Of a stretch of DNA of 56,902 nt, positions 45,452-55,681 are shown piece by piece (position 1 is the first letter of the stretch; every line of letters begins with the position of its first letter). The DNA is from a virus. Where the stretch lies: IMG/VR virus record IMGVR_UViG_3300042350_003263, positions 1-56,902 of that record; one strand, given 5' to 3'. A program made the translations under genes and the position numbers. Under the pieces are notes generated by a model, which saw only the letters and a list, made by a program, of their open reading frames with translations, was not told where the DNA came from and ran no database searches.

Positions 45452-48400
45452 ATGGTAAGTCAAGTAATTAAAGACAGTTTCCTAAACATCTATAAGGATG
45501 ATTATAGGGACAGTGACAACTATTATAAAATCCTATTTAATAATGGTAGAGCGCTACAACAGCGAGAGCTTAACCAGATGCAGACTATCATTAATAAGGA
45601 TATAAAATCCTTTGCTGGATATATGCTTGATCCCGGTGCTGCTACAGAAGGCGGTGCAATTGCTGTACTAAAAGTTCCATTTATTAGATTAAATCTAGTT
45701 TCCAACCCACTACCTGCTAATCCTACATCAATTGAAAATGTCGTGTTTGAAGAAACCTCTACCGGTATTCAATTTAGAGTAGAGAAAGTTACCGCTGCTA
45801 CTGGTATCATATATGTGACTTATATTGACCAAGCCGGAGAAGTAGTTACTGATACTGCAATATCAATCACAAATACAAATAGTACTTTAGTGGCTCAAGA
45901 TGGGTCTGGGGTTACTCTTTCTACCTCTGCAACAAATACGCTAGTTTCTCCTATGACAGGGGAAGGTCTTCTGTGTATTCAGAATCCAGGTAGATTCTAC
46001 GTTGATGAGCATTTCATCTATAGTCCAAGACAAATTATTATTCTTTCCGCTACAAGCTCGAATGCTGATGTCGTAGTAGGTCATAAAGTTTCCGAATCAA
46101 TCGTAACAGTAAACGATAATGAAGACCTATATGACAACTCTGGTGCAAACTTAAACATCTCAGCGCCGGGTGCAGATAGATATAGAATTACTCTAGAACT
46201 TACTACTCAAGATTTAGTAGATTCATCTGATTATTTCATCCCGCAAATTAAAGTTGCTGATGGTAAGGTCGTTAGTGATAAAAATGCTGGGGCTAGCGGA
46301 TTAAAAGCTACAGAAGATTTCCTTGCTATTCGTTTAAGAGAAATCCATGGTAACTTTACCCAACAGAATTTTATTATTACTTTCGAAGATGATCCAAATA
46401 ACGCTGACGCTTTTAAAGTAATTATTAACCCGGGTAAGGCTTATGTTGGCGGTCACAGAGTTCATTTAAGAGAGCGTCTGGTCCTTACAGAAGCTCGTCC
46501 TAGAACTACCCAGGTTATTAATAATGAAACAACAACTGTAACTTACGGTAACTACGTTGTCGTAAGCGGTATGCAAAGTCTATTCGATGTCGGATCTTTC
46601 GAGAAAGTAAATATTAAACAAAGCTCTACTACCATTGGTACAGCTTATGTTAGAGCTATTGAAGAATTTGGCAGCAATTATAAAATTTACCTATTTGAAG
46701 TAAAAATGAATGCTGGTAAAAACTTTTCATCAGCTACCTCTATTCAAGATTCTACGAGTAATGCTGCAACTATCGTCCTAGAAAATGGTGTCGCTAGACT
46801 TTACGGTCAAGAAGATAGAAATCTGCTCTTTGGATTAAATCGTATTCGCCCAAAAAGTTTCTCAGATATCGTCTTCACTACTCAGAAGCATTTTGCCGCT
46901 CAAACCGCTGCAAGTAACCAGATTACCGTTTTAGCCGGTACAGGTAAAGCATTTGATGACACTGGTTCTTGGATAATTGTTAATGAAACTACCGACACAG
47001 TAGTAACTCCTACGATCACACTTTCTGGTGGAGGTAGTACTGCAGTTATTGGTGGTTTAACTAACGGGGAAAGTTATGCAGTACATGCCTATGTTCAACA
47101 TTCCGGTACTTCTGGTTCAGTAAGAACTAAAACATTAACAAATAGAACAGATTCGGGATTATCTGTATCTGGTGGTGTAGTAACATTATCTCAGGTTGAT
47201 GTGTACTCTATTACTTCTGTTATCGATAATACAACTAGTGCTGACATTACAAACAATTTCAAATTTTATAATGGCCAGACAGACAACTATTATGACTATG
47301 GTACACTAACCTTAAAAGGTGGTGCACCTACGCCAGCAAGCACAGTCACCGTAACTTATAGGCATTTCAACTGGGGTACTTCAGGAGACTTCTTCGCAGC
47401 ATCAAGCTACACTGGAACTATTGACTATGAGGATATTCCAGCCTTTAGACTGAATAATGGTAATACTGTAGAGTTAAGAGAAGTATTAGACTTCAGACCG
47501 AAAAGATCAGGTTCAACATTCAGCGGATTTGCTCTTCCTAGAAATGGTGATCTAATTACTATGGACGTAGAATACTACCTCCCAGTCAGAGGTAGAATAT
47601 TCATAACACGTGATGAAGTATTCGGGGTTTATTTCGGCGATCCAGCCTTTGATCCTAAGTTGAGAGATTTAGGAAATGACCTTGATACTATGGAAATCGC
47701 GAACTTCTATGCTAATCCTTATATGCTTAATACAGGGGATTTAGTTCTTAACTATACCCAGAATAAGCGATATACTATGAAAGAAATCTCTAACATTGAT
47801 GAAAGATTAAAAGAACTAAAAGAATTCACTACTCTTTCGTTATTAGAGCTCGGAGCAGTAAATAAGAATGTTCTTGATGCTGAAGGATTCAATAGACTAA
47901 AAACAGGTATTACCGCTGACAACTTTAAAGACCACTTCCAGACCGATACGGCTGATGAAGAACATAGAGCTGCTATAGACTTCATCGAAGGCGTGGTTAG
48001 ACCACAAACAACACAGAATTCTATTGATCTGGTTTTTGATTCTGATCTATCTAGCGGTGTTGTAAAGGTAGGCGATATAATTATCCTTGATTATGATGAA
48101 GAGGTTTGGAAGAACCAATCTTCAGTTTCTAGATCTATCCCTTTAGATGATACTATCTTGAAAAAATATCAAGGTGCTATTACAATGTCCCCTGGTACTG
48201 ATAACTGGAAAGATACCAAAACTCTTCCCGATAAAGTGATTACCGGTAACCCAAGAATTGAGCCTAAGATAAATAACACCTTTAACTATAACTCAGTTAG
48301 CTGGCAGGGTATTAAAGCAGGTGATCTAGCAAATGCACAAAATGGAACTGTAGTAGCTACCGGTACTTCAACCTCATCTACTACTTCAACCGGTGGCGTA

Positions 48401-49837
48401 ACAACTACTAAAACTGTAGGAGTAAAGGGTGGTACAAATACCATTACTACTACTACGGCTAAGCGAGAAACAACTGTTACTAAAACCCCAGTTTATAAAT
48501 TGGAGGGAAGTACTTATCTTTCAGAATCTCTGGGTGAGTTTGTTCGCGCAAGAATTTCTATTCCTTATATGAGATCCAGATTCGTATCCTTTAAAGCGAC
48601 CGGCTTAAGACCGAATACGCGTCACTTCGCATTCTTTGGTTCGACAGCGGTAGATGATTGGGTATACGCAGCGACTGGCCCAAGTGAATTCACAAGAGCT
48701 TCTGATCTTTCTAGAACTAGTGATTTCAGAAAATGCGGACCAGAACTTTCTAACTTTACTCAGTATCCTTTTGATGGGGGGGCAACCCAAATTGTGACCG
48801 ACGCAAACGGTACAGTATCAGGTTGGTTCCTGATCCCAAATACAAGTAGTATTCGATTTAAAACCGGAAGAGTTACTTTTAGATTACTCGATATCAGTAT
48901 ATTAAGTGATGTAGGTGCAACATCTACAGCAAGTTTTGTCTATGAAGCGAATGGTACTTTAGAGCAAGTTCAAGAAGAAGTGCTTTCTACTAGAGTATAT
49001 CAGATTTCTACGGCTATTGATACCGATACTTCTACAAAAGTTATTCCTGAAAGATCAAATACCGTCTTTACCCCAAATCCAGTACCAGTAAAGGTAGAAA
49101 AAGAATCCTGCTTTGTAAAAGGCACAAAGGTTAAGATGTTCGATGGTTCTGAAAAGAATATCGAAGACATACAGATCTTCGATATGCTGATGGGTCAGAC
49201 TGGCCCTAATATGGTACTATCTTATGACCACTGGCCATTAGGAGGAAGAGATTTAATTGGTATTAATGGATCTGGACCTTTCAAAACTCCTGAACATCCT
49301 TTGATGACAAAAGAAGGTTGGAAAGCATATGATAGTGAACTTACTCAAATCCAAAAACCAGAGATTGCCCATCTAATGGTAAACGGCAGTTTAAAAATTG
49401 GCGACGAAATTTTCATGGGTAATGATACTTGGGTAAGAATAGAATCTCTTGAAGTTCACTCAAATGAACCAGAACAGGTAGTTTATAACTTCTATCTAAA
49501 CGGAGACAACACTTATTATGCTAATGGTATGTTAGCACATAATAGATGTGGTACACCTCCGGGTAATCCAAGTTGTCATGGTGGCGGCGGGTATACCAGT
49601 GGACCTGGCTGGAGTGGAAGTGATATTAGACTGAAATCTGATATTCAGTATCTTTATAATATGGATGATATTAAGATCTATTCATTTAAATATCTATGGG
49701 ACACCGTCACCAAGCATATTGGTGTAATGGCTCAAGATCTAATCGGAACTAAATATGCTAATGCTGTAGCTACCGATGAGAATGGATATTATAAAGTCGA
49801 TTATAGTCAACTTCCGAATATACCTGGTAGAGATTAA
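45452..49837 (+). CDS. Large tail protein (DUF4815-like) with Hint and S74 domains (1461 aa)
   Basis: The N-terminal ~650 residues look like the DUF4815 tail family ('DNYYKILFNNGRALQQRELNQ', 'GAATEGGAIAVLKVPF'); beta-rich fibre domains and T/S/G-rich linkers follow. Residues 1220-1364 form a Hint (intein/hedgehog) domain: 'CFVKGTKVKMFDGSEKNIED', 'TPEHPLMTKEGW' and 'NTYYANGMLAHN'. A cysteine/glycine linker then leads to an S74 chaperone domain (about 1390-1461, 'SDIRLKSDIQYLYNM', 'HIGVMAQDLI'). S74 domains trimerise fibres and cut themselves off before the SDxRLK serine. Two autoprocessing modules in tandem are unusual. Confidence 0.85.
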   Translation: MVSQVIKDSFLNIYKDDYRDSDNYYKILFNNGRALQQRELNQMQTIINKDIKSFAGYMLDPGAATEGGAIAVLKVPFIRLNLVSNPLPANPTSIENVVFEETSTGIQFRVEKVTAATGIIYVTYIDQAGEVVTDTAISITNTNSTLVAQDGSGVTLSTSATNTLVSPMTGEGLLCIQNPGRFYVDEHFIYSPRQIIILSATSSNADVVVGHKVSESIVTVNDNEDLYDNSGANLNISAPGADRYRITLELTTQDLVDSSDYFIPQIKVADGKVVSDKNAGASGLKATEDFLAIRLREIHGNFTQQNFIITFEDDPNNADAFKVIINPGKAYVGGHRVHLRERLVLTEARPRTTQVINNETTTVTYGNYVVVSGMQSLFDVGSFEKVNIKQSSTTIGTAYVRAIEEFGSNYKIYLFEVKMNAGKNFSSATSIQDSTSNAATIVLENGVARLYGQEDRNLLFGLNRIRPKSFSDIVFTTQKHFAAQTAASNQITVLAGTGKAFDDTGSWIIVNETTDTVVTPTITLSGGGSTAVIGGLTNGESYAVHAYVQHSGTSGSVRTKTLTNRTDSGLSVSGGVVTLSQVDVYSITSVIDNTTSADITNNFKFYNGQTDNYYDYGTLTLKGGAPTPASTVTVTYRHFNWGTSGDFFAASSYTGTIDYEDIPAFRLNNGNTVELREVLDFRPKRSGSTFSGFALPRNGDLITMDVEYYLPVRGRIFITRDEVFGVYFGDPAFDPKLRDLGNDLDTMEIANFYANPYMLNTGDLVLNYTQNKRYTMKEISNIDERLKELKEFTTLSLLELGAVNKNVLDAEGFNRLKTGITADNFKDHFQTDTADEEHRAAIDFIEGVVRPQTTQNSIDLVFDSDLSSGVVKVGDIIILDYDEEVWKNQSSVSRSIPLDDTILKKYQGAITMSPGTDNWKDTKTLPDKVITGNPRIEPKINNTFNYNSVSWQGIKAGDLANAQNGTVVATGTSTSSTTSTGGVTTTKTVGVKGGTNTITTTTAKRETTVTKTPVYKLEGSTYLSESLGEFVRARISIPYMRSRFVSFKATGLRPNTRHFAFFGSTAVDDWVYAATGPSEFTRASDLSRTSDFRKCGPELSNFTQYPFDGGATQIVTDANGTVSGWFLIPNTSSIRFKTGRVTFRLLDISILSDVGATSTASFVYEANGTLEQVQEEVLSTRVYQISTAIDTDTSTKVIPERSNTVFTPNPVPVKVEKESCFVKGTKVKMFDGSEKNIEDIQIFDMLMGQTGPNMVLSYDHWPLGGRDLIGINGSGPFKTPEHPLMTKEGWKAYDSELTQIQKPEIAHLMVNGSLKIGDEIFMGNDTWVRIESLEVHSNEPEQVVYNFYLNGDNTYYANGMLAHNRCGTPPGNPSCHGGGGYTSGPGWSGSDIRLKSDIQYLYNMDDIKIYSFKYLWDTVTKHIGVMAQDLIGTKYANAVATDENGYYKVDYSQLPNIPGRD
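49109..49543 (+). other. Hint/bacterial-intein-like domain (residues 1220-1364)
   Basis: Block A starts with C1220 (C-F-V-K-G-T-x-V), block B is represented by 'TPEHPLM' (T-x-x-H) and the C-terminal block is 'YANGMLAHN' ending H1363-N1364. The residue after N1364 is R, then C1366, so the normal Cys/Ser/Thr at +1 for protein splicing is missing. This matches A-type bacterial intein-like domains rather than a classical intein. No endonuclease. Confidence 0.8.
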
Positions 49838-49856
49838 ATAGGCGAACCAAAAAGTC

Positions 49857-49864
49857 TATAAATA
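49857..49864 (+). promoter_or_regulatory. T4-type late promoter
   Basis: Exact TATAAATA in the 54-nt gap after the Hint-containing gene, 27 nt before the start at 49892. Confidence 0.75.
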
Positions 49865-49891
49865 ACAAGATAAGTTTATTAGGGAATTTCC

Positions 49892-51493
49892 ATGAGTGAA
49901 TCAAAACACGTAAGTCCGATGTTTCAGACATTTTATGTCGAAAACAAATTCGGGGTTTATATCACAAAAATCGGATTATTTTTCAGAACAAAATCTGACA
50001 AAGATGGCGTCAGAATTAATATCCGTGACTCATTTAAGGCCGGCCAATTAAGCCCGAACACCTTGGATATTATTCCTGGGACAGACGTATTTAAATCTGC
50101 TTCAGAAATTACTGTTTCAGAAAATGCTTCAGCAGAAACAATTTTTGAATTCGAAGAGCCTATTTATCTTTTCCCTGATAAATTCTATGCAATTGCCATT
50201 ATTACAAATGATGGGGTCGGCTATGAAATTTGGTCAGCTACCGTCGGTGATTTTAACCTCGGCACCACCACTTCTAGAGTTTCTCAAGATCCTGACACTG
50301 GGGTATTATTCCGGGCAGCTGGTGGTTTAGCTAAAATCCCAGAAGGTATTACTGATCTAAAATATAAAATTTATAGAGCCAAGTTTAAATCTACCGGTGG
50401 TACAGTCGTATTAAAAGATGCTAATCCATCGAGACAATTACTCGAGACTAATCCGTTCCTTACCACTAACGCTTCAGCTGTTGTTCGTGTATATCACCCA
50501 GATCACGGTTTCCAGATAAACGATAAAGTGCATATCACCGGATTAACAGCCGGAACTTCTTATAATGGTATCACAGGTGCTCAAATGCTTGGCACTAGAA
50601 CGGTTACCCAAATAGACGCTACCGGATATAAATTCACTGCTGGAGGTACTGCTTCTTCAAGTGGAAGAGTTGGTGGTGCGGCAGTGAAAGTAACAGAGCA
50701 ATATGTATTCGATTTACTAACCCCTACTATCGATCATTACATTCCGAGAAACGTTGCAAAGGTAACTTATAGCGGACAGTTCTGTACTTCTACCTCTTTT
50801 GCAGCAGACTCTGATGATGAACAAAGATATGCAACTACTTCTAATATTGAATTAATTCCTAGTCAGACCATTACTTTTGAACAGCCTCATGTTATTCTCC
50901 AGGATTCAAACGAGACAGTACATTTTGGTGGAAATGAATCTACCAGAATTACTGCTACTTTGACTAACCTAACTACAAACGACTATATTTCACCTTACAT
51001 TGATATGCAGCGTGCTAGTCTTGTGGTTATGAATAACTTAATCGATAGACAAGATTCTGCTGCTTCGGTTGGATTTAGTACTCCGATAGATTTCGTTCCT
51101 GAAACTAATCCTTCTGGTGGTACCGAACTTGCTAAACATATTACTAAGCCAGTTGTTTTAGAAAATCCAGCGAATGGCCTAAAGATCAGCTTTGGTGCTC
51201 ATACCCCAATTGGCGGACAGATTGATACGTACTATAGAATTACTAAAGTTGGTGCGGATTCTGATATTCAATTGAAGAATTGGGTTTATATTAATTACGA
51301 CGAAACCCCTATTACCGACAAAGATCCGAACGTCTTTAGAGAATATGAAGCAAATCTCGGTGGGGAATATTATGACCAGCTAGATCACTTCGATCAATAT
51401 CAGCTTAAACTTGTTATGAGATCGCAATCGTCTTCTAGAGTCCCTAAGATTCAAGATCTAAGAACTATTGCTCTTGGTGTAGATTCAGCCTAA
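49892..51493 (+). CDS. Virion structural/fibre-connector protein (533 aa)
   Basis: 'PMFQTFYVENKFGVYITKIGLFF' and 'FEEPIYLFPDKFYAIAIITND' resemble a lectin-like beta sandwich found in tail proteins next to DUF4815 proteins; a middle insert 'VYHPDHGFQINDKVHITGLT' is a small beta repeat found in other fibres. C-terminus 'YDQLDHFDQYQLKLVMRSQS'. Role as adhesin or connector is inferred from context. Confidence 0.65.
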   Translation: MSESKHVSPMFQTFYVENKFGVYITKIGLFFRTKSDKDGVRINIRDSFKAGQLSPNTLDIIPGTDVFKSASEITVSENASAETIFEFEEPIYLFPDKFYAIAIITNDGVGYEIWSATVGDFNLGTTTSRVSQDPDTGVLFRAAGGLAKIPEGITDLKYKIYRAKFKSTGGTVVLKDANPSRQLLETNPFLTTNASAVVRVYHPDHGFQINDKVHITGLTAGTSYNGITGAQMLGTRTVTQIDATGYKFTAGGTASSSGRVGGAAVKVTEQYVFDLLTPTIDHYIPRNVAKVTYSGQFCTSTSFAADSDDEQRYATTSNIELIPSQTITFEQPHVILQDSNETVHFGGNESTRITATLTNLTTNDYISPYIDMQRASLVVMNNLIDRQDSAASVGFSTPIDFVPETNPSGGTELAKHITKPVVLENPANGLKISFGAHTPIGGQIDTYYRITKVGADSDIQLKNWVYINYDETPITDKDPNVFREYEANLGGEYYDQLDHFDQYQLKLVMRSQSSSRVPKIQDLRTIALGVDSA

Positions 51494-53935: not shown

Positions 53936-55681
53936 ATGGTTGTTGATCGCTTAGTAAAGAGATCCGGATCATACGATCTGAGAAGAATTAGTGGAGCGGA
54001 AGAAAATTACCTTGCTTGGCAAGTTGCAAATAATCTTTTCAGTTCTGTAGCTGGCGAAGCTGGTGTACTAAGTGGTTCTAGTACTAACGGTACTTCTGTT
54101 GGTACTCACACAAATACCTTTTATAACCAGCCAGTAGGCACTCACCCTAGTACATCACTTACTACTTCTTCAACAGTAACTACTTTATATCAGAATTTTT
54201 CTGGTAATGCCATAGAAGCAAACATATATCCAGTTATTAATGAGAATAGCTCGATTGATTTTAAAGCAGTAAATGATGCTGAATTAAACACAATTGCTGA
54301 TAGACTATTAGCAAAGGTCTTTGGTTCAGATTACTTTTCTTATAAGATTGGGTCTTCTGCCCCAGCTGGTTATACCTTATTTGTATCTTCTATCTTTACT
54401 GACACCAGAACAGATGGCACAAGCGTAGCTTATAATCTTTATAAAAAGAATTTATCGGCTATGCCTACAGTAGTTAGACCGTTGAAATTAGACGGTGCTG
54501 ACTTTAGAACTATGACTGATACAGAGATTCGTAATCTGTTTGCCCAGAGAGTAAAGAATAGAATTGTCCAAAATGGTATTGGTTCTTATCAACTCCGTAC
54601 TTCTATTCAAGGTGCACCAATCGCCGCTGGCACTTGGGTTGCAATGGGTACTGCTCTCGACACGAGACAGAATACCGCTGATCAAAACTATACAAGAATT
54701 AGTACAAGAGATTCTACCCTTATCTCTACTCGCGGTAGTACAAATAACTTTCTTAGAACATCCCAGACACCTTTTACATCAAACTTCTTAGGTAACTTTC
54801 TAGGAAATTATCTAGCAGATGTAGACTTTTCTGCGGACTACACTGGTAACTATGCTTCTGGACCTACTAACATTGCTGGCGATTATACTATCGATAGCAC
54901 TATTAATTCTACTAGAACATCAGAAGTCAATTATACACGAACAAGCAATACAGATTTTACAAGAATCTCCAACGTTATCTTTACCAGAGATACACAGATT
55001 AACTATACCAGAATATCTGAGGTTAACTATACGAGAGATTCTACTGTAATTTTCGATTCACCGGATAATGTTAATTTTACAAGAGTTAGTACTGTAGTCA
55101 GTGCACGGGATCCAGCCTTTGCAACTTTTACCGGTAACTACACCGGGGATTACGTAGCTGGTGCCATCTATACTAGAATTTCTACTGTAGTCAGTGCACG
55201 GGATCCAGCCTTTGCATCTTTCACCGGTGACTTCGTCGGAAATTACGCTGGGCCTACACCATTTCAAGGTAATTTCATTGGTGATTATACCGGCGGGTTC
55301 GTAGGAGACTATATCGGCAACTTCGTTGGTAACTATACCGCCGATTATGGTGGTAACTATATTGCTGACTATGCCGGGGATTATATCGGCGGTAACTTCC
55401 TTGGTGATTATATCGGTAACTACGTTGGAAACTACGTAGCTGATGATTATGTAGGAAATTATACCGGTAACTATATATCTATTGTAGATTATACTAGAGA
55501 TACTATTACTGACTTCGTCGGCGATTTTGTAGCCGATTATATTGGTAATTATGAAGGTGGCTTTGAGGGTGATTACCTAGGTAACTTCATTGGGGATTAT
55601 ACCGGGGATTATGCTGGAGAAACTATTCAGTCTACCTCCTCGACTATAGAGATATATACATTATATCTTCGAACAGCATAA
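53936..55681 (+). CDS. Fibre-type protein with octapeptide and tetrapeptide repeats (581 aa)
   Basis: Domain order: N-terminal domain with 'VVDRLVKRSGSYDLRRISGAE', a domain with 'FTDTRTDGTSVAYNLYKKNLS' and 'GSYQLRTSIQGAP'. Then an octapeptide region (about 245-395) of the form x-N-Y-T-R-x-S-x ('VNYTRTSN', 'TDFTRISN', 'VNYTRDST'). Then a tetrapeptide region (about 396-565) of G-[ND]-[YF]-x ('GNYTGDYV', 'GNFLGDYI'). A compact C-terminus ends 'STIEIYTLYLRTA'. The repeats predict a beta-solenoid or fibrous stalk. Paralogous to the next gene. Confidence 0.75.
   Translation: MVVDRLVKRSGSYDLRRISGAEENYLAWQVANNLFSSVAGEAGVLSGSSTNGTSVGTHTNTFYNQPVGTHPSTSLTTSSTVTTLYQNFSGNAIEANIYPVINENSSIDFKAVNDAELNTIADRLLAKVFGSDYFSYKIGSSAPAGYTLFVSSIFTDTRTDGTSVAYNLYKKNLSAMPTVVRPLKLDGADFRTMTDTEIRNLFAQRVKNRIVQNGIGSYQLRTSIQGAPIAAGTWVAMGTALDTRQNTADQNYTRISTRDSTLISTRGSTNNFLRTSQTPFTSNFLGNFLGNYLADVDFSADYTGNYASGPTNIAGDYTIDSTINSTRTSEVNYTRTSNTDFTRISNVIFTRDTQINYTRISEVNYTRDSTVIFDSPDNVNFTRVSTVVSARDPAFATFTGNYTGDYVAGAIYTRISTVVSARDPAFASFTGDFVGNYAGPTPFQGNFIGDYTGGFVGDYIGNFVGNYTADYGGNYIADYAGDYIGGNFLGDYIGNYVGNYVADDYVGNYTGNYISIVDYTRDTITDFVGDFVADYIGNYEGGFEGDYLGNFIGDYTGDYAGETIQSTSSTIEIYTLYLRTA
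55091..55216 (+). repeat. 33-bp perfect direct repeat within the fibre gene
   Basis: 55091-55123 and 55184-55216 are identical (ACTGTAGTCAGTGCACGGG... to TTTGCA), 93 bp apart. They encode 'STVVSARDPAFA' twice. A recent in-frame duplication of a 31-residue unit. Confidence 0.85.
55124..55623 (+). repeat. Tetrapeptide-repeat coding tract (G-N/D-Y/F-x)
   Basis: About 12-bp period, GG(T/A/C)-(A/G)A(T/C)-T(A/T)(T/C)-NNN, with varied third bases, so the repeat is kept at protein level. Ends just before the gene's C-terminal domain. Confidence 0.8.

Follow-up and report, generated by a model that had tools for sequence, protein, structure and literature searches.

The window analyzed here is a 56,902-nucleotide stretch of viral DNA (IMG/VR record IMGVR_UViG_3300042350_003263, positions 1 to 56,902). 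Two adjacent genes on its plus strand encode the two halves of a VrlC protein, designated VrlC-A and VrlC-B, and a Hint domain followed by a short S74-like domain occupies the C-terminal part of the first half (Table 1).

Table 1. Features of the split VrlC locus in the window
Feature	Coordinates	Strand	Basis or remark
ORF VrlC-A, 1461 aa	45452-49837	+	codon 1220 (Cys) from 49109, codon 1364 (Asn) to 49543
VrlC-A body, residues 1-1184, DUF4815/phrog_358, first half of VrlC	45452..49003	+	profiles and C48C1 alignment
Linker, residues 1185-1219, with S1219 (acyl side of the predicted N-terminal cut) as its last residue	49004..49108	+	sequence
Hint domain, residues 1220-1364	49109..49543	+	profiles, AlphaFold2, Foldseek, alignment
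C1220, putative N-terminal nucleophile	49109..49111	+	invariant in 43/43 distinct VrlC Hints (partly detection bias, see text)
T1279-P-E-H1282, block B (TxxH)	49286..49297	+	His invariant in 29-sequence alignment A5
H1363-N1364, block G, putative Asn cyclization site	49538..49543	+	invariant in A5 and in 43/43 VrlC Hints (partly detection bias, see text)
R1365, +1 residue, basic, no splicing nucleophile	49544..49546	+	K/R in 43/43 VrlC Hints
Gly/Pro/Cys linker with C1366 and C1375 (HNRC-x8-C)	49547..49618	+	sequence
Short S74-like C-terminal domain, residues 1390-1461	49619..49834	+	Pfam PF13884, phrog_6121
Stop codon and 54-base gap, Shine-Dalgarno-like AGGGA at 49881-49885	49835..49891	+	sequence
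VrlC-B, second half as a separate gene	49892..51493	+	phrog_358 5e-89, profile positions 1764-2054

The initial annotation had taken the chain ahead of the Hint domain for the shaft of a tail fibre. Profile searches gave a different identity. The window ORF matched Pfam DUF4815 at 1.3e-41 and phrog_358 at 2.8e-199, and its body aligned with residues 8-1149 of VrlC from phage C48C1, which is a single chain. The profile match was accompanied by a baseplate gene context, and VrlC has been described as a component of two-layered baseplates (PMC7029224). The protein that hosts the Hint domain is VrlC/DUF4815, a baseplate-associated protein of a T4-like phage. That the following ORF encodes the remaining half of VrlC had been overlooked; it pairs with residues 1157-1661 of the C48C1 chain. 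In C48C1, the two parts lie 7 residues apart, at the motif DPLAQTF, whose counterpart in VrlC-B is SPMFQTF (49913-49933). Like the VrlC proteins of Kyanoviridae, pelagimyophages and Ackermannviridae, the window protein has both halves in the same order beside gp8-like baseplate genes; unlike them, it is encoded by two genes with a Hint domain at the break.

VrlC is a single chain in most of its relatives, for example one of 1635-2222 residues in phages C48C1, pf16, Mosig, HTVC008M, P-HM2 and BUCT-ZZ01, and in Xanthomonas phage X1 it is annotated as two genes with the break at a different place. In the window, the gene is broken exactly at the position of the Hint domain, just ahead of the DPLAQTF-type motif, and six related loci (L001-L006) are split at the same junction. 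The intergenic gap and the Shine-Dalgarno-like sequence are kept in L001 and L003, and L005 has a 33-base gap with AAGGA. A sequencing error as the origin of the broken gene was ruled out because the split, the gap and the start bearing a Shine-Dalgarno-like sequence recur in L001-L006. The fixed landmark of the Hint domain is the VrlC-A/VrlC-B junction, which is also the site of the gene split. Downstream, positions 53936-55681 of the window encode a tail-type protein that consists mostly of repeats such as GNYTGDY/GNFVGNY and YTRISTVVSARDPAFA and has no Pfam match; the ORF that follows in L001 and L004 is of the same repeat-rich type.

The boundaries that the initial annotation had given for the Hint domain, residues 1220-1364, proved exact, with sequence blocks, profiles and fold in agreement. 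Block A reads C1220-FVKGT. The excised domain matched Pfam Hom_end_hint slightly above the cut-off (33.5 bits, 5.4e-08; cut-off, 32.1), and the full ORF scored just under the same 32.1-bit cut-off (29.8 bits); matches to Vint and Intein_splicing were below their cut-offs. A single-sequence search of the PDB gave a weak match, to PI-SceI (0.0097). With a profile built from 29 relatives, BIL and intein structures in the PDB were recovered, the best match being the bacterial intein-like (BIL) domain 2lwy (1.1e-17), together with many inteins. The AlphaFold2 model of the window Hint had a core pLDDT of about 90-98 and a pTM of 0.80, and Foldseek aligned it with BIL2 (6y75, E value of 9e-10), the gp41-1 intein and the BIL domain 2lwy, with a probability of 1.00. 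The model predicted the horseshoe beta fold, with a TM score by target length of up to 0.80. An N-terminal Cys within block A, a TxxH block B and this fold are the marks of the Hint superfamily. Residues 1220-1364 are therefore a genuine, catalytically complete Hint domain, and a chance resemblance was ruled out by the profile, fold and comparative evidence.

The residue after N1364 is Arg, as had been pointed out before, and not the Cys, Ser or Thr of a class 1 intein. A canonical intein was ruled out because the +1 nucleophile is missing throughout the VrlC Hints. The terminal His-Asn without a +1 nucleophile, together with the matches to 2lwy and 6y75, bears out the suggested resemblance to type-A BIL domains. 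The window Hint shares with the type-A BIL domain of Clostridium thermocellum (2lwy) the fold, the N-terminal Cys, the terminal His-Asn and the lack of Cys, Ser or Thr at +1. It differs in its location, a fixed junction of a phage baseplate protein where gene fission also occurs, in being often tandem among its relatives and in having always Lys or Arg at +1. BIL2 of the Tetrahymena BUBL1 polyubiquitin locus (6y75, 6tmm), the best structural match, is likewise an intein-like domain between two modules. However, BIL2 is eukaryotic and acts between ubiquitin-like domains, and isopeptide formation has been reported for it, whereas for the window Hint this activity is hypothetical. Mini-inteins (gp41-1, DnaB and the helicase inteins of Vibrio phages) have the same fold and blocks A, B, F and G, but their splicing needs Cys, Ser or Thr at +1 and their hosts are conserved enzymes, whereas the window Hint sits in a structural protein.

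Scans of IMG/VR showed that, at this junction, one-chain VrlC proteins from further uncultured phages contain a single Hint or a tandem array of up to four, each Hint being about 145-162 residues long. In L037, L039, L041, L163, L168, L175, L177 and L180, the Hint lies directly before DPLAQTF, reading HN/KDPLAQ in L037, L039 and L168 and HN/RDPVAQ in L163 and L177 (the slash marks the end of the Hint). Tandem copies are joined as HN-[K/R]-C (four in L035, three in L169, two in L165 and L167) or, in the two-Hint L173, as HN-RS-C. Arrays of three to four Hints with single-Lys joints (HN-K-C) were seen at L035:7001-8905, L038:5415-7175 and L169:2499-3914, and in L035, copies 2-4 seem to have arisen by recent duplication. 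Clustering at 80% identity left 43 distinct VrlC Hints. The first Cys and the terminal His-Asn were present in 43/43, an invariance that is partly a detection bias, since the profile seeds contain CF and HN. The +1 residue, which was in neither the seeds nor the pattern scan, was Lys in 30 and Arg in 13 and never Cys, Ser or Thr; in Hint-free VrlC, Lys or Arg precedes DPLAQ in 13 of 59 sequences. These Hint counts come from Hint-guided sampling and do not give the prevalence in VrlC; of the 80 loci retrieved by the second half alone, two had a clear Hint, one of them in a one-chain VrlC and the other in a split one. An AlphaFold2 model of L088 covering the C terminus of VrlC-A, the Hint and the start of VrlC-B was poor (pLDDT 60, pTM 0.29) and was left out.

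Class 1 splicing would have no nucleophile in these proteins because the +1 residue is always Lys or Arg. The zero-linker insertion HN/[K/R]DPLAQ is nonetheless exactly intein-like, and an unusual mini-intein could be envisaged in which self-excision of the Hint goes together with an attack on the thioester by the free amine of the +1 Lys or Arg, so that the flanks are joined. One-chain forms would then yield a normal-looking, ordinary VrlC, and in the window VrlC-A would be joined to the S74 tail. Such a free-amine route, with the C-terminal fragment as the attacking partner, has been proposed for type-A BIL domains, but these are reported to give mostly cleavage (PMC4031507). Moreover, the window clade and the proteins ending in HNK (see below) have no second half in cis, and Hints of this length are too short for the homing endonuclease that marks a mobile intein. 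We consider nucleophile-free ligation unlikely. Trans-ligation to the N terminus of VrlC-B through a side-chain nucleophile was also disfavoured, residue 2 being Ser in the window and Val in L005 (MVTT).

We next consider what flanks the domain. The linker ahead of it had a dN/dS of about 0.3 against both L001 and L005. In the linker behind it, a C-x7-8-C pair is kept in L001, L003 and L005, and a similar HNKC-x8-C occurs in L081. The linker cysteines, proposed earlier as possible acceptors for the thioester, are candidates in the window clade, where C1366 and C1375 are conserved, but a general acceptor role was ruled out because most VrlC Hints in the 29-sequence alignment A5 lack the pair. 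These residues bear on another possible activity, in which the C terminus of VrlC-A would be passed from the C1220 thioester to an amine or thiol (a lysine, or C1366/C1375) on a second protein, of either the virion or the host. The product would be a covalent baseplate joint or an attachment to the host surface. BIL2 of BUBL1, the closest fold, is reported to form isopeptide bonds to lysine and to link the partner at its N terminus with other proteins (PMC8616854). Such a cross-link would also account for the conserved basic +1 residue and the C-x7-8-C motif, which are otherwise unexplained. However, the acceptor is hypothetical, the cysteine pair is not general, and the +1 residue of 13 of the 43 distinct Hints is Arg, whose side chain is a poor acyl acceptor. 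Cross-linking by acyl transfer is, in our judgment, improbable.

The S74 assignment of the initial annotation was confirmed by Pfam Peptidase_S74 (PF13884), which matched residues 1390-1431 above the cut-off (2.1e-07, 31.6 bits against 22), and by phrog_6121 (1.4e-12). The Ser/Lys pair of the SDxRxK motif is present as S1390-D-I-R-L-K1395 and is kept in L001 and L003. The Pfam match, this pair and the C-terminal position are shared with the chaperone of endosialidase; unlike the latter, the window domain has only about 72 residues, ends soon after the Pfam match and is optional, and its trimerization and self-cleavage before the Ser are putative. Hint and S74 are both present in L001-L004. In L005 and L006, S74 has no counterpart, and the chain ends 11 residues past the Hint, at HNRCDVDAGGDCQ. 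S74 is thus an optional add-on of VrlC-A. Its absence from L005 and L006 led us to reject it as the reason for the Hint, contrary to the initial proposal that the two work together; in one-chain proteins the Hint adjoins VrlC-B. A Hint followed by S74 recurs in L220 and L245, unrelated virion-type proteins other than VrlC; in L245, the Hint ends one residue before the S74 serine (HN/K/SDARLK). Therefore, the combination is not accidental.

A quick tree built from 119 VrlC second halves required at least seven changes of the Hint trait and at least five of the split trait. The window clade (n = 7, support of 100) is nested among one-chain forms; all its members are split, and six have the Hint. 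The dN/dS of the window Hint was 0.07 against L001 and 0.19 against L003, and its identity to L005 was 74%, versus 64% for VrlC-A. These comparisons indicate that the Hint is under purifying selection and is maintained. Type-A BIL domains are typically located in variable regions of non-conserved proteins; VrlC is conserved overall, but the A/B junction is a variable insertion point that accepts S74, helical C-terminal domains and degenerate Hints (L114 and L115). In the split VrlC-A of L097, L098 and L119, a helical end (CTEMYRQ...GYHWLFKP) takes the slot of Hint and S74, and other split lineages (L082, L109 and others) have no recognized Hint. The diversity of these inserts would suit a relic, a former intein kept as an exposed decoration of the baseplate with its chemistry unused, and tandem duplication would fit decoration as well. 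On the other hand, the first Cys, the block B His and the His-Asn are invariant across very divergent sequences under purifying selection. The intact Hints also appear to be kept, because degenerate copies exist in L114 and L115 and look different from them. We therefore give an inactive domain a low probability.

Hints ending in HN[K/R] were also found in other phage ORFs, some of which match virion-protein families. There, as in VrlC, the sequence after the last Hint varies: VrlC-B, S74 (L220 and L245), a helical C-terminal domain (L197, L228 and L231), a short degenerate Hint-like domain, or nothing past the Lys. Proteins that stop after a Hint and one terminal Lys (HNK-stop) were seen at L056, L057, L060, L061, L012, L043, L072, L251 and L254. 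A degenerate second Hint-like domain (C-F-x-x-G-T ... SGSH ... FTDYF) follows an intact HNK Hint in L207, L225, L237, L239 and L248. In tblastn searches of INPHARED, no VrlC was matched by the window Hint, the VrlC Hint of L039, the Hint-S74 region of L245 or the Hint of L061. The Hint matches there were mostly to genes annotated as helicase, terminase, recombination or other enzymes. Several others were hypothetical or unannotated, in Ruminococcus phages NatCom_3870, NatCom_28775 and NatCom_29429, Achromobacter phages, Vibrio phages 268E42.1 and PS65A.1, and Bacteriophage sp. MT836326. Those outside annotated enzymes include H66-H67, H85, H87-H88, H97-H99 and H103 (Ruminococcus, Achromobacter and unannotated faecal phage), and a virion Hint with HN[K/R] from a cultured phage may be among them. 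A search of genome contigs found no relative.

Cutting and acyl transfer, which the initial annotation had put forward as plausible activities, are both supported as candidates. The reading that we prefer, with about even confidence, is autoprocessing like that of type-A BIL domains, by cleavage at the VrlC-A/B boundary that would free VrlC-A at S1219. Acyl transfer from S1219 to C1220 would give a thioester, and attack on it by water or an amine would leave S1219 as the last residue of VrlC-A. Cyclization of N1364 would free the segment from R1365 to D1461, with the cysteine linker and S74, from the Hint. For the one-chain relatives (HN/[K/R]-DPLAQTF), this pair of cuts would leave VrlC-A and VrlC-B as separate chains. 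In the window clade, the same two-chain state may have been reached genetically, with the Hint retained as a C-terminal processing domain of VrlC-A. The fold, the catalytic residues, the basic +1 residue, the position at the A/B junction, the gene fission with a new ribosome-binding site and the purifying selection together suggest such autoprocessing. In type-A BIL domains, which have His-Asn and no +1 nucleophile, cleavage products dominate (PMC4031507).

Several observations count against the cleavage reading. Arrays of two to four tandem Hints exceed what a single cut would need, and in the HNK-stop proteins a C-terminal cut would free only a lysine. Separation of the two halves needs no Hint, since several split lineages have none that is recognized. 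The strictly basic +1 residue, the tandem arrays and the HNK-stop proteins are unexplained by simple cutting. A broader proposal, which we advance more tentatively than autoprocessing by cleavage, is that the HN[K/R] phage Hints form a distinct class of virion autoprocessing domains that would cleave baseplate and tail proteins, or couple them covalently, at fixed boundaries between modules (before the second half, S74 or a helical domain), the gene split being another way to arrive at this processed state.

Most reports of phage inteins concern replication and packaging enzymes, and such inteins are usually viewed as selfish elements. Searches of the open-access full-text literature found no description of Hints in VrlC. 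In the VrlC proteins analyzed here, what appears to be a non-splicing Hint relative recurs, with its catalytic residues intact, at one core baseplate junction of T4-like phages, and independent gene fissions strike the same junction. If cutting or coupling does take place, tail assembly would include an autocatalytic maturation step that the open-access papers found do not describe. Hints whose +1 residue is invariably basic would widen the range of chemistry known for this domain type and may offer tools for protein processing or ligation.
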